Source of the DNA: Candidatus Nitrosopelagicus brevis
GTDB lineage: Archaea; Thermoproteota; Nitrososphaeria; Nitrososphaerales; Nitrosopumilaceae
Length of the DNA stretch: 64,000 nt
Direction: 5' to 3'
Assembly: GCF_000812185.1 (NCBI RefSeq)
Contig: NZ_CP007026.1
Span: 997,107-1,061,106, forward strand
Shown here in pieces: positions 31,819 to 57,792 of this stretch. The translations under genes and the position numbers were made by a program. The notes under the pieces were generated by a model. The model was not told where the DNA came from. It was given only the letters and a program-made list of their open reading frames with translations, and did no database searches. Each line of letters opens with the position of its first letter. Positions within the stretch are counted from its first letter, which is position 1.

Positions 31819-32625
31819 ATGATTAAATCGGTATTAATAGCAATAATTTGTTTAGGAGTTTTGTTTTCAGTCCAAGCAGCAGTTGCAGAAGAGGAATTAC
31901 CTCTTCCAGAGGGGAAAAATATCAAGGAATGGGAATCTATCAGCGCAGCATTAGTTGCAGAAAAAAGATTTAGTGAAGCAATAATCTATCTTGATAAAAT
32001 TTTGGAACAAGAACCAGATAACTTGAAAGCATTAACTAACAAAGCAGGACTTCTTGCACAACTAGGAAATTTTTCAAAAAGTCTTAGTTTATCAAATAAA
32101 GTTTTAGAAATGGATCCAGATAGACTTTCAGCATTAACTAACAAAGCAATTGCACTAAAAATGCTAAATGAGTATGAAAAATCTTTTGAAGTCTTTACAA
32201 AAATATTGATAATTGATCCAGATAATGAAAAAATAAAACAAGCAAGAGCTAGCTTACTAAGTGAATCACCTACAATTTCAACAAATGATTCTATGTATGA
32301 TGTTCATGTCTTAGTTGTAGTTAGAGACAAAGATGAAAATCTCATTGCAGTCACTGAATCAAATAATGCACGGTATTTACCATCAAAATTTACTGAAAAG
32401 TGGTGGAATGACTTATCAGAAAAAAATTATTTGAAATATGAGAATGGTTATGAAATATTTCAAAAAGAAAATACAATGTTATCAAATGACGATCATTTAG
32501 GAATGTTAACATTAGAACGTGAAATGAGCGGGTATAACGTGAATATTTTTGAAGCGTTTATTCCATTGATTCAGATGGAAGAGACAGATACTGCAAAAGT
32601 TCAATGGACGATTATCAAGAATTAG
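31819..32625 (+). CDS. Secreted TPR protein with C-terminal WTII-type domain
   Basis: The 268-residue protein has a signal peptide (KSVLIAIICLGVLFSVQAAVA) and then three TPR-like repeats at about residues 35-140 (ALTNKAGLLAQLGNF, ALTNKAIALKMLNEY). A C-terminal domain of about 110 residues contains VVVRDKDENLIAVTES and ends in VQWTIIKN. This last domain resembles the secreted protein at 57277-57792, which has LRNLDGELISVTKT and ends YWTIIRSD. It lies tail to tail, overlapping by 11 bases, with a GT-C-like membrane protein gene, exactly as the relative does. Function unknown; it should act outside the membrane. Confidence 0.8.
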   Translation: MIKSVLIAIICLGVLFSVQAAVAEEELPLPEGKNIKEWESISAALVAEKRFSEAIIYLDKILEQEPDNLKALTNKAGLLAQLGNFSKSLSLSNKVLEMDPDRLSALTNKAIALKMLNEYEKSFEVFTKILIIDPDNEKIKQARASLLSESPTISTNDSMYDVHVLVVVRDKDENLIAVTESNNARYLPSKFTEKWWNDLSEKNYLKYENGYEIFQKENTMLSNDDHLGMLTLEREMSGYNVNIFEAFIPLIQMEETDTAKVQWTIIKN

Positions 32626-33817
32626 GCTTTTTAGAGAAAAACATTCCAATTCCTATTGAAAAGAATACAATTAGTGGAATATACCTATACGGAAGAATTT
32701 CATAAAAATTTGTGAATACTATAAGAATTGGACCTGCCAACAAGGTACCTAAAATTAAAAACAAGATTGAATCTGTTTCTTTAATCCAATTTTTTGCAAG
32801 TAGTGTTAATCCAACAACAACAGGTAAAATTGTCATTAGTAAAAGGAAATCATATCTCAGTAAAGGTCCAAACGTTGCAAGTCCAATGAAGAATTTTGAC
32901 GCATCAATTTGTATTACATTTGGATATATGGTGTCTCCAGAGAAAATGACTATGGCTGAAATTCCTATGATTCCTACATATGAAATTAAAAGTAGAATTT
33001 TCTTTTTGCTCGAAATCGAGGTTCTTCCAACAAAGAATAGCGTCATGACAAAATAAGGTGCAACAAATGCTTTGGTGAAAAAGGATAGAATATAGAAAAT
33101 TGGAGATAAAATCCACTGTTTTTTTATGACGTAAATTGATAATAGATAGAATAGTACCCAGAAATTTTCGTATACTGCAACTGTATCAAATCTAAGAAAT
33201 GTATGACTCTGAATCAATACAAGAATTGCAATAATTCCGGCAAATCTTTTTTCAGTAATTTGAACTGTTAAAAGATATGTGAATAGTATTACCAGGATTG
33301 AAGCAACAAAAGGTAAAATTTTGATATTTTGGAAAATTGTCTGAGATGCATCTAAGAGGAGCATGCGTACATAACGGTCATTTTGTTCTTCGATGTAGAT
33401 ATTTTCAGATTTTCCGTCTGGCCATATCTTTAATGCATCTTCCAGAATTTCATAATCACCCCACTGTTTAGATTCATCAAGTAATAATTCTGGAGAAGAA
33501 ATACCAATGTATAATGAAAAAATTATTAATAAAATGATCAAAGTAGGTTTTTTTGGAATTTCAAAAATTCGTATTTTGTCTATGGAATTAGAAATTGAAG
33601 AAGGCAATTTTTTCTTATAATAGATAATTCCAAAAAATAATAATCCAAGATTTGATAAGATTACAGGAACGCCCAATGTTCCAACTTCATATGGAATTAG
33701 GTTATCTGAAAATTTTCCAAATACAGATGAAAATAATGATGGAAAAATTATTGAGATAATAGTTAATGAAATAAAAAAGATGGTTGCAATACCAATTAAG
33801 CTGGAAATTTTCGACAT
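32615..33817 (-). CDS. Polytopic membrane protein, possible GT-C glycosyltransferase (copy 1)
   Basis: The 400-residue protein has about ten membrane segments. Just after the third comes an acidic loop LLLDESKQWGDYEILEDAL (near residue 112), in the position where GT-C glycosyltransferases carry their DE or DD motif. Other landmarks are RYVRMLLLDASQ, AVYENFWVLFYLLSIYV near residue 213 and the C-terminal YEILPYRYIPLIVFFS. A clear paralog lies at 56060-57280, with aligned blocks throughout. Glycosyltransfer is inferred from fold-like features and not shown. Each copy converges on a gene for a secreted WTII-type protein. Confidence 0.75.
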   Translation of the reverse strand: MSKISSLIGIATIFFISLTIISIIFPSLFSSVFGKFSDNLIPYEVGTLGVPVILSNLGLLFFGIIYYKKKLPSSISNSIDKIRIFEIPKKPTLIILLIIFSLYIGISSPELLLDESKQWGDYEILEDALKIWPDGKSENIYIEEQNDRYVRMLLLDASQTIFQNIKILPFVASILVILFTYLLTVQITEKRFAGIIAILVLIQSHTFLRFDTVAVYENFWVLFYLLSIYVIKKQWILSPIFYILSFFTKAFVAPYFVMTLFFVGRTSISSKKKILLLISYVGIIGISAIVIFSGDTIYPNVIQIDASKFFIGLATFGPLLRYDFLLLMTILPVVVGLTLLAKNWIKETDSILFLILGTLLAGPILIVFTNFYEILPYRYIPLIVFFSIGIGMFFSKKPNS

Positions 33818-55438: not shown

Positions 55439-55981
55439 TTAAATTAAAAATTCACTTTTACCAAACTCGGTAGATAATTTTCTATCATCAATCCATCCAC
55501 AATCCTTACACTTTACTGCATCTCTCATTTTTACAACAGTACCAAAACATTTTCTACATTTTGTGAATAATACTCCTAATTCTGGTGAATCTATAGTTGC
55601 ATGTATTGTTCCATTTATGTGACTGATTATCTTTGCTTTTACAACATCTTGTGCTAAAGCGATATTTTTTTTCCTAATATGTCTCGTAACACAAATACAT
55701 TCCAAATCTGAATTCATTTTTTTTCCATTAACAAATTTTATCATTATCGCAATCATTGATGGTAAATTTGCCTCCACAACTCCTATGATTACATCCCCTA
55801 CGTTTGGTACTGTAATCTGTTTTTGTCGATTTATTGATGCTAATCTTTCAGAAGAATCTAGATTAATTTCTCCAATTGTTGTTGCTCTAATAGAATCGTT
55901 ATCCTCAAATGTATTTTCTCCTGGCAAATATTCTTCAATTTGTGCAATTTTTTCGCCTGGAATTTTTTGATTTTCATTCAT
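55439..55981 (-). CDS. csl4: Exosome subunit Csl4
   Basis: The protein has about 180 residues from the ATG at 55981; an ATG four codons upstream is possible. It has an N-terminal domain with IPGEKIAQIEEYLPGENTFE, a central S1 RNA-binding domain (GDVIIGVVEANLPSMIAIM) and a C-terminal zinc ribbon with CRKCFGT and CKDCGWID. Csl4 caps the archaeal RNA exosome and recruits substrates, often with DnaG. The Rrp41/Rrp42 subunits are not in this window. It is divergent from the GT-C-like gene. Confidence 0.95.
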   Translation of the reverse strand: MNENQKIPGEKIAQIEEYLPGENTFEDNDSIRATTIGEINLDSSERLASINRQKQITVPNVGDVIIGVVEANLPSMIAIMIKFVNGKKMNSDLECICVTRHIRKKNIALAQDVVKAKIISHINGTIHATIDSPELGVLFTKCRKCFGTVVKMRDAVKCKDCGWIDDRKLSTEFGKSEFLI

Positions 55982-56059
55982 AGATATACTCAAGAATTTT
56001 AACTATTATTTGTTTTTAGACTCACATAATTGATTAACCAGTTATAATTTACCAGTGAT

Positions 56060-57280
56060 ATGAGTGAGCAAATATCTAGCAAATTGATATCTTATGCAGT
56101 ATTTCTAGTCACGCTCGGAGTTATTGGAGTAAGTATCCTATCTGTGATGTTTCCAGCCTTGATCATTTCAAATACATATGAATTTTCTAACGATTTAGAT
56201 CCATTTGAAAGTAATTCTTGGTTACCATCAATTATCATATCTATTTCATCTTTTTTGATTATAGGCTTTCTTTATCAAAAAAAGAAACTTCCATCTTTTT
56301 TTCAATCTGGAATACATTTTATTTTAAATTTTGAAACCTCAAAACGAGTTTCAATAATAACTGCAATTATAATTTTAGTTATCTACATTGGATTCTCTTC
56401 TGAAGAATTATTTATCGATGAGATGCGTCAGTGGCCAGATTATAAAGTATTACAACAGGCATTAGATATCTGGCCATCTACTGATCATTGGAGTATCTAC
56501 GTTTCAGAACAAAATACTAGATATGTTAGAATTATTCTTCTGGATTTTTCACAGGAATTTCTTCAAAATATAAAATTATTACCTTTTGTTGGAAGTATTC
56601 TTGTTGTAGTATTCACTGCATTAATAACTACACAAATAGCAAAAAAAAGATTTGCTGGCTTGGTGTCAATGATTATTCTATTACAAAGTATCACCTTTAC
56701 TGATTTCGATACTATTGCTGTTTATGAGAATTTTTGGGTATTATTTTATCTCATTTCATTGTATTCAATTCAAAAAAGATGGTGGTCTGCTTCACCAGTA
56801 TCTTTTGTTTTAGCTATTTTCACAAAAGCATTTATCATAACATATTTTTGGATGAATATATTTTTCATTTATCGTGCAGAAATTCCTAGAAAAACAAAAT
56901 ATTTCTTATTTTTAACTTACGGTGCAGTTATTGGAATAGTATATTGGATTTTTGAAAGTGGAAAAAGTATAATCTATGATGATATTGTTAAATTAGATGT
57001 AAATGCATTTTATGATGGATTTACTGGATGGGGAAATAATATGCAACTTGATCCTCTTGCAATTTTGTGTGTAGTTCCTTTAACAGTTGGATTATTCATA
57101 AAATCTCTGAAGGGAGTTAAACAAGCTGATTCTGTCTTAATTTTGATTATGGGCACAATTCTTGCTGCACCATTGATCTCTTTTGTTACCGATTTCTATT
57201 TCATATTGCCTTATCGATACATTCCATTTATTGTAGCAATGGCAATTGGAATTGGAGTTTTTCTTTCAAAAGAAGATTAG
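56060..57280 (+). CDS. Polytopic membrane protein, possible GT-C glycosyltransferase (copy 2)
   Basis: The 406-residue protein has about ten membrane segments and is a paralog of the 400-residue protein at 32.6-33.8 kb. Shared landmarks in the same order are the acidic loop LFIDEMRQWPDYKVLQQAL near residue 117, RYVRIILLDFSQ, AVYENFWVLFYLISLYSIQ near residue 222, an FTKAF stretch and LPYRYIPFIVAMAIGIGVF near the C-terminus. The acidic loop matches the site of GT-C motifs, so glycosyl transfer at the outer face is inferred. It converges, with a four-base overlap, on a gene for a secreted WTII-type protein, as copy 1 does. Confidence 0.75.
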   Translation: MSEQISSKLISYAVFLVTLGVIGVSILSVMFPALIISNTYEFSNDLDPFESNSWLPSIIISISSFLIIGFLYQKKKLPSFFQSGIHFILNFETSKRVSIITAIIILVIYIGFSSEELFIDEMRQWPDYKVLQQALDIWPSTDHWSIYVSEQNTRYVRIILLDFSQEFLQNIKLLPFVGSILVVVFTALITTQIAKKRFAGLVSMIILLQSITFTDFDTIAVYENFWVLFYLISLYSIQKRWWSASPVSFVLAIFTKAFIITYFWMNIFFIYRAEIPRKTKYFLFLTYGAVIGIVYWIFESGKSIIYDDIVKLDVNAFYDGFTGWGNNMQLDPLAILCVVPLTVGLFIKSLKGVKQADSVLILIMGTILAAPLISFVTDFYFILPYRYIPFIVAMAIGIGVFLSKED

Positions 57281-57792
57281 TCGCTACGAATTATTGTCCA
57301 ATAAGTTATAACAGAATCTGATGGTTTTACTATATACGAATGGTGTAAACCTCTAAAAATTTCATATCTCTCTCCAAGATTATCACGTACCCCCAAACTA
57401 GTAATAAATGCCCTATGATACCAAGCACATTCTTCATCATACCCTGGAACTTCAAAAACTTGTGTCAAACATTTCTCATAGTTATACTCGACAGTTATTT
57501 CACGCATTTCAACATTTTTTCCATTCACAATTCCTGTTTTCACAATTGGTAGCGTATCCACAAAATTATGCGTAACATCTTTTTCTAAATAACTTGTTGC
57601 AACAGTTTTTGTGACACTAATTAATTCACCATCCAAATTTCTTAGAATATTATATGCCTGAACTTTGTATTCTGAATCTTTGATTTTAATTAATTCATCC
57701 GTATTCCATGTTAACGGCTCTGCAGCAATATTTACTGAAAAAATTGAAACAAATGATAATCCAATTATTATTAGAAGTATTGTTTTTTTCAT
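57277..57792 (-). CDS. Secreted WTII-type protein of unknown function
   Basis: The 171-residue protein has a signal peptide (KTILLIIIGLSFVSIFSVNIAA) and an extracytoplasmic domain of about 145 residues. It contains ILRNLDGELISVTKTVATSYL and ends YWTIIRSD, matching the C-terminal domain of the secreted TPR protein at 31.8 kb (RDKDENLIAVTES and VQWTIIKN). Two cysteines (KCLTQVF and ECAWYHR) could form a disulfide. It has no TPR repeats. It follows dph2 after three bases on the same strand and faces the GT-C-like gene. Confidence 0.78.
   Translation of the reverse strand: MKKTILLIIIGLSFVSIFSVNIAAEPLTWNTDELIKIKDSEYKVQAYNILRNLDGELISVTKTVATSYLEKDVTHNFVDTLPIVKTGIVNGKNVEMREITVEYNYEKCLTQVFEVPGYDEECAWYHRAFITSLGVRDNLGERYEIFRGLHHSYIVKPSDSVITYWTIIRSD

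Follow-up and report, generated by a model that had tools for sequence, protein, structure and literature searches.

The described systems closest to the locus reported here are the protein O-mannosyltransferases (PMTs, family GT39), ArnT (GT83) and the Stt3, AglB and PglB proteins (GT66). Proteins of the PMT type have a DE pair after the first helix, ArnT carries a C-terminal periplasmic domain, and STT3 and AglB carry a C-terminal soluble domain. PIG-U, of the GPI transamidase, has the same GT-C fold and is not known to be an enzyme. Members of the GT-C superfamily are described as crossing the membrane with 7 to 13 helices, the first of which is usually followed by a small extracytoplasmic part, and some of these enzymes carry an extra carbohydrate-binding domain that binds the acceptor (PMC11127046). 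In three-component side-chain systems, made up of a GtrA-type flippase, a lipid-sugar synthase and a GT-C enzyme, and in the GT136 system, it is the GT-C enzyme that adds sugars outside the membrane (PMC11127046).

Here we describe a pair of genes that occurs twice in a stretch of 64,000 nucleotides (the window) from Candidatus Nitrosopelagicus brevis. Our main reading, to which we give a probability of about 0.5, is that the pair is a glycosylation module in which a GT-C enzyme uses a lipid-linked sugar and a separate outer subunit binds or presents the acceptor; we infer the activity, the donor and the acceptor. In the sea, ammonia-oxidising archaea count among the most abundant cells, and little is known about the glycosylation of their surfaces. 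A 2025 study that searched two species for agl-type genes reports one aglB in each (PMC12153357).

Results

Both copies of the membrane protein are open reading frames (Table 1), and 182 of 396 columns (46%) are identical in their pairwise alignment. The genome is a single contig of 1,232,128 bases, 99.5% complete. Among named organisms, Candidatus Nitrosopelagicus and marine group I thaumarchaeotes are its nearest relatives, with ten full-length loci that are 76-93% identical to copy A. A family HMM built without the window rows matched copies A and B only, among the 129 window ORFs of at least 60 aa.

Table 1. Coordinates of the two gene pairs, of selected codons and of a further protein of the same genome (window positions, except where a contig is named)
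Feature	Position	Strand	Remarks
GT-C-fold membrane protein, copy A	32615..33817	minus	ORF, 400 aa; residues 1-84, two extra membrane helices; about 85-400, GT-C part
D114 codon (D of DE), copy A	33476..33478	minus	D in 18/43 of A3
E115 codon, copy A	33473..33475	minus	43/43 in A3
D121 codon, copy A	33455..33457	minus	43/43 in A3, 24/24 in A1; likeliest candidate for the catalytic Asp
Partner of copy A	31819..32625	plus	hydrophobic N-terminus (by eye), tetratricopeptide repeats (TPR), C-terminal partner domain; partner HMM made without the window, E 2.6e-39
Partner domain of the TPR protein	32278..32625	plus	partner profile
GT-C-fold membrane protein, copy B	56060..57280	plus	ORF, 406 aa
E121 codon, copy B (E115 of copy A)	56420..56422	plus	pairwise alignment
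D127 codon, copy B (D121 of copy A)	56438..56440	plus	pairwise alignment
Partner of copy B	57277..57792	minus	171 aa, hydrophobic N-terminus (by eye), one partner domain; partner HMM made without the window, E 1e-30
STT3-family protein of the same genome	C1:1169358-1170440		

Conservation was read from two alignments of the family. A1 (24 rows) excludes the fragments L023, L024, L029 and L030 and repeats of the window; A3 (43 rows) holds 41 of the 62 locus ORFs and the two window copies, without near-duplicates and most fragments. The two are not independent, because both contain the window copies and they share further genomes.

Database profiles give the family no name. Neither copy matched Pfam at E 1, so that PMT and PMT_2 (PF02366, PF13231) also stay under the Pfam cut-off, and NCBIfam returned nothing for copy A and two matches for copy B (E 0.085 and 0.12). 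The suggestion of a first-pass annotation, made from the sequence of the window, that the family may be new thus holds as far as Pfam and NCBIfam go. Among the 43 aligned members, PMT_2 matched weakly in six (best E 5e-4). The lowest Pfam E-value among them belonged to TgpA_N, which is not a GT-C family (5/43, best E 8.5e-5); we read these matches as probably due to chance, because the fold matches are GT-C. NCBIfam matches in the same members, each in one or two of the 43 (best E 0.0034, in two), were also put down to chance. Sequence searches of the PDB with a single protein and with the A1 profile returned nothing relevant, and a scan of viral contigs gave 156 pattern matches and no relative of the family. 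Of 400 genomes of the class, 72 matched a profile of the 43 members, and all but one of these (G089, of f8) belong to the taxonomic family of the window (f1). Within genera the family occurs patchily, and a genome can have as many as four matches, fragments included.

On the evidence of the AlphaFold model of copy A, made from the 43-row alignment (pLDDT 89.8, pTM 0.91), the membrane protein almost certainly has a GT-C fold. When Foldseek's best 1000 chains were aligned to the model with VIA-align, 44 rows had Z of 8 or more; they run from Z 11.2 to 23.2 and are all GT-C enzymes or complexes containing one, led by Pmt4 (23.2), Pmt1 (21.4), ArnT (21.1) and AglB (20.0). Six of the 44 are chains of larger complexes, which we take to be STT3A or PIG-U. 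In Foldseek itself the first five targets were all GT-C, with probabilities of 0.97-1.00 and weak E-values for GT-C targets (0.05-0.23), and hhalign of the family against an STT3 set and three PMT_2 sets from relatives was likewise weak (probability 2-21%). A membrane protein of 12 helices that has no family assignment could be a transporter or channel of unrelated fold, but we give this hardly any credence: the 44 GT-C rows at Z 11-23 are followed by a designed protein at Z 3.6, and transporter or channel targets had a probability of 0.11 or less among the best 50 Foldseek rows. The first-pass annotation had proposed a GT-C fold, and the resemblance of the model to GT-C structures, PMT, ArnT and AglB among them (Z 11-23), bears it out.

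Of the 12 membrane helices assigned from the model, 10 lie in the GT-C part, within the range of 7 to 13 of the superfamily. The fold matches cover about residues 85-400; the GT-C part therefore begins near residue 85, and helices 2-24 and 49-67 are an extra N-terminal piece. At the other end, copy A stops eight residues past the last helix (376-392) and for this reason lacks an ArnT-like C-terminal domain; nor is there a C-terminal soluble domain of the STT3/AglB kind.

The acidic loops pointed out in the first-pass annotation are present in the window copies as quoted (LLLDESKQWGDYE and LFIDEMRQWPDYK), each followed by RYVR. The loop of copy A does come directly after an early membrane helix, as had been claimed: the membrane helix before it in the model, 89-112, is third in the protein and first in the GT-C part, and the loop lies on the outer side by the topology assigned from the model. 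The proposal that DE is a catalytic acidic pair stands for one of its residues, as far as conservation goes. E115 is Glu in 43/43 rows of A3 and 22/24 of A1, whereas D114 is Asp in 18/43 and 2/24, being elsewhere N, E, Q and others, and the DE pair that marks PMTs is thus not kept in the family. The loop acids that are kept family-wide are E115 and D121, the latter Asp in every row of both alignments, and these two supply the conserved acidic residue after the first GT-C helix that is looked for in a GT-C protein. Likewise, the conservation between the two copies that had been taken as the sign of an active site extends to RYVR in both and not to the family, since D114 varies and R148 of RYVR is Arg in 29/43. 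Lack of conservation of the acidic pair among homologs, named in that annotation as grounds for giving up the idea, applies to half of the pair, with D114 not kept and E115 kept. Elsewhere in the protein, K249, Y377 and R378 are each kept in 43/43, and D323 is Asp in 41 rows and Glu in two.

Several features bear on sidedness. The loop of copy A (113-166) has 12 D/E versus 6 K/R, and when segments are assigned by alternating the helices of the model, inner segments have a K+R to D+E ratio of 20:5 and outer ones of 12:21. E44, E110, E115, D121, D211 and D323, all of them conserved acids, are placed outside by this assignment. Polar columns with at least 93% conservation number 29, of which 19 lie outside, 6 inside and 4 mid-membrane, an excess that is modest because 209 of the 400 residues are assigned outside.

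Catalytic sites of solved enzymes were compared by a rough projection, without gaps, through seven fold rows. D121 falls on residue 46 of yeast Stt3, 48 of STT3A and 102 of STT3B, each one residue from the catalytic Asp (47, 49 and 103; PMC7226087). E115 falls 7 residues short of it in the same three rows, and R378 projects 2-3 residues from R404 of Stt3 and R375 of PglB. The D121 projection misses the catalytic Asp of AglB by 5 residues and that of PglB by 12; it is 1 residue off in Pmt1 and 2 in ArnT, at the positions that we take to be their catalytic Asp. In the weak hhalign alignments, D114-E115 align to the DE of a DE-type PMT_2 set, and with the STT3 set, read by eye, E115 corresponds to a Glu two before the presumed catalytic Asp and D121 to a later Asp. 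On the projection, D121 is put forward as the likeliest candidate for the catalytic Asp, with one hhalign alignment favouring the DE position instead.

From the model and these columns, the membrane protein is likely to be an active glycosyltransferase. PIG-U offers a precedent for another possibility, a GT-C-fold protein without enzyme activity that serves as scaffold or receptor for the partner described below; GPI transamidase chains, presumably PIG-U, are among the fold matches (Z 15.5-16.1), and the DE pair is not conserved (D114 18/43). We consider this unlikely, as a scaffold has no obvious need for E115, D121, K249, Y377 and R378 in 43/43 rows and D323 in 41/43, all on the outer side, and sugar-related genes lie beside some copies. 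An active enzyme is the reading we follow: very probably, the gene product is a membrane protein that transfers sugars outside the cell.

Its likeness to known enzymes is closest for Pmt1, Pmt2 and Pmt4, which give the best fold matches (Z 23.2 and 21.4) and share the acidic loop after the first GT-C helix, along with the weak PMT_2 matches in 6/43; identity is nevertheless 8-11%, and the family differs in lacking a conserved DE pair and in having two extra N-terminal helices and a separate partner gene. ArnT resembles copy A in fold (Z 21.1 over 290 residues) but is 9% identical and carries the C-terminal domain that copy A lacks. Stt3, AglB and PglB match at Z 16-20, with D121 and R378 projecting near the catalytic Asp and the phosphate-binding Arg of Stt3. 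In contrast to them, the copies have no C-terminal domain, the WWDYG motif is absent from both window translations, and the same genome has a separate STT3-family protein.

The first-pass annotation made no mention of a linked partner gene. Each copy overlaps, tail to tail, a gene on the opposite strand, by 11 bases for copy A and 4 bases for copy B. A partner profile made without the window picked out exactly these two of the 129 window ORFs (Table 1). Direct BLAST between them is not significant (E 0.19); we regard them as homologous because a profile made from other loci matches both. Across 60 of 61 loci, all 62 family ORFs have a convergent ORF of at least 90 aa near the tail, and in 54 of the 62 it matches one iterated partner profile. 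Fifty of these 54 pairs overlap, by 4 to 41 bases, and the remaining four (L050, L066, L069, L090) are at most 5 bases apart. Among the eight loci without a partner at the tail, a partner-like ORF lies upstream and divergent in L042, L043 and L060, and some 600 bases further along in L083; the sequences of L054 and L070 start within the gene, at the edge of a contig, and no partner is present in L084 and L089. An upstream, divergent partner is a feature of some marine group I loci (L041, L042, L043, L060): L043 has it as two tandem copies, and L041 has partners on both sides. One record (L087, JAJFJL010000089.1) is titled Nitrosomonas sp. yet carries the archaeal gene pair, and is probably a misbinned contig.

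The linkage extends to the 400 genomes of the class, which hold 109 enzyme-family places and 110 partner places. A tail-to-tail partner is found at 88 of the 109 and at 79 of the 90 that are near full length (>1 kb), with match ends -12 to 65 bases apart. Of the other 11 near-full-length places, three have a partner upstream and divergent, two have one further downstream, and six have none within 4 kb; the weakest-scoring enzyme copy, in G089, is one of the six. Both genes occur in 70 of the 400 genomes, the enzyme without the partner in two (G352, G089) and the partner without the enzyme in three (G080, G337, G403), which gives Fisher's p of 8e-72 for joint presence when kinship is ignored. 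In a phylum-wide draw the partner occurs in 23 of 398 genomes, all in f1. It is likely that enzyme and partner work together as a pair.

The pair has also travelled. Upstream of the 54 family genes, the longest ORFs within 600 bases, some of which may not be genes, form 22 clusters; one cluster of six is itself partner-like, which leaves 21 clusters in 48 ORFs. The many upstream clusters lead us to conclude that the pair changed places many times, as a unit. Protein distances of enzyme and partner are correlated (r 0.84 in 50 pairs; 0.72 in 26 non-redundant ones, with 0 of 5000 permutations as high), and trees of 48 of the 54 pairs plus the two window pairs share 30 of 47 splits, against a mean of 0.28 with permuted labels. 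Tree agreement supports a cassette, and joint function only indirectly, because inheritance at one place explains much of it.

Some modules are reduced. In G076 (C9:7746-7956) what is left of enzyme and partner is short and weakly matched (E 4e-11 and 8e-4), yet the two still adjoin, and in G080 (C8:9506-9724) the partner match contains stops. Together with G126 (C1:47742-49903), these modules show remnants of both genes, stops, or some 600 bases between enzyme and partner, and they look decayed, as they would for a cassette being lost.

The two genes might instead share no function and have stayed side by side simply because tails that overlap are not easily separated; 50 of the 54 pairs overlap, and breakage may damage both genes. 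This is improbable, however, given that copies sit at many sites (22 upstream clusters) and the pair moves as a unit, that four pairs (L050, L066, L069, L090) have no overlap and the partners of L042, L043 and L060 are upstream and divergent, that presence matches across genomes (70 with both; 2 and 3 with one), and that the remnants of both genes in G076 still abut.

As for the partner itself, the model of partner B (57277-57711; pLDDT 86.7, pTM 0.79) is beta-rich, with seven strands and one main helix. The domain is about 120-140 aa long and occurs alone or behind TPR repeats, and the hydrophobic N-terminus, recognised by eye in the sequence, suggests that the protein is probably secreted. 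A fold search gave no solved relative and nothing above Z 2.9; the best rows, cyclophilin B, a zinc sensor, SlpA and YceI (Z 2.9 or less), were set aside. Over the Pfam cut-off, the partners scanned matched only TPR and other repeat families, and none for the partner domain. Its best-kept residues in 47 rows are L30 (45), W138 (44) and R24, G28 and D132 (42 each).

The partner could itself be the substrate, a surface protein dedicated to being glycosylated by the GT-C enzyme encoded next door. The same pairing, joint-presence and distance-correlation data fit this, the partner is more variable than the enzyme (mean column identity 30% in A5 versus 46% in A3), and in L020, L021 and L027 the GT-C gene is directly preceded by a gene for a further protein whose N-terminus is hydrophobic. 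Against it, none of the Ser, Thr or Asn columns in the partner comes near to being invariant (the best is T139, 34/47), nor is a Trp or Cys kept three places after W138 in the 47 rows; the TPR forms suggest protein binding. We therefore hold the acceptor reading to be doubtful and slightly favour an acceptor-binding subunit.

The upstream proteins just mentioned belong to a set of about 195 aa with a hydrophobic N-terminus, at L020:2776-3372 (minus), L021:2711-3292 (minus), L027:2735-3313 (minus) and L084:7556-8149 (plus); in the first three, about 50-60 bases separate the gene from the GT-C gene downstream of it, which is on the same strand. They match phrog_5417 (viral, unknown function; E 3e-20 to 3e-6). 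Their first hairpin and last strand resemble the partner domain in a weak hhalign match (probability 38%, 28 columns), which is only suggestive, and we do not claim that they are related to it. Near divergent family members there is also a protein of up to about 250 aa with an FDGKWT.. pattern, at L021:1-678 (minus), L027:3571-4167 (plus) and L084:6413-7171 (minus). The L084 protein, of 252 aa, has no Pfam match over the cut-off and looks CBM9/DOMON-like by eye.

Ten upstream neighbours, chosen by eye from the 54, were scanned. A GT2 with a GtrA/DPMS domain is upstream in L051 and L088, a GT4 in L071 and L079, a nucleotidyltransferase in L080 and a PGI-type sugar isomerase in L076; the other four are non-sugar (a metallophosphoesterase, a Cdc6-type protein, an EF-Tu-domain protein and one without a match). 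The immediate neighbours in the window are not sugar genes, being ferredoxin-like for copy A and exosome-type for copy B. The latter, an ECR1_N-domain gene at 55439-55993 (minus), lies next to the start of module B; a similar ORF of 182 aa precedes nine family copies, and the site of copy B therefore looks stable in Nitrosopelagicus. Elsewhere the genome encodes one STT3-family protein (Table 1), two PMT_2 proteins over the cut-off and one GtrA/DPMS-type protein.

Discussion

We propose a model in which the GT-C enzyme would take one sugar from a polyprenyl-phosphate carrier and put it onto an acceptor outside the cytoplasmic membrane, in line with the outward-facing site of the assigned topology. 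D121, which opens the helix that follows the first membrane helix of the GT-C part, would be the catalytic acid residue, with E115 helping, and R378, at the outer end of the last helix, may hold the lipid phosphate; position and conservation point to these roles. The partner, once secreted, would cooperate with the enzyme, as linkage, joint presence and tree agreement suggest. Most likely it would be a separate extracytoplasmic subunit that binds or presents the acceptor, doing the job of the built-in carbohydrate-binding domains of some larger GT-C enzymes.

The three-component and GT136 systems are also among the closest known, and GT2+GtrA genes lie beside two family copies (L051, L088). 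Here, in contrast, the extra domain would be a separate gene product, of unknown fold class, and a gene resembling a donor synthase adjoins only those two copies among the 10 neighbours scanned. In our searches the GT-C family and the two-gene arrangement look new, while the fold itself is of a known kind; for open-access papers, the titles and abstract openings of the matches listed include no paper on the enzyme-partner pair.

It is tempting to go further and to speculate that the locus is a split GT-C glycosyltransferase, whose acceptor-recognising extracytoplasmic domain is a separate, secreted protein of new fold, encoded tail to tail with the enzyme. The pair would then be gained, duplicated, moved and lost as one cassette, changing the surface sugars of marine ammonia-oxidising archaea. 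We offer this fuller version tentatively, as a possibility that is less likely than not.

Beyond the enzyme itself, the patchy GT-C family and its probably secreted partner provide concrete genes in which variation of the cell surface, for example in relation to viruses, can be tested in these archaea. In a broader context, the pair would be a test of the idea that the acceptor-binding domain of a GT-C enzyme can come from another gene.
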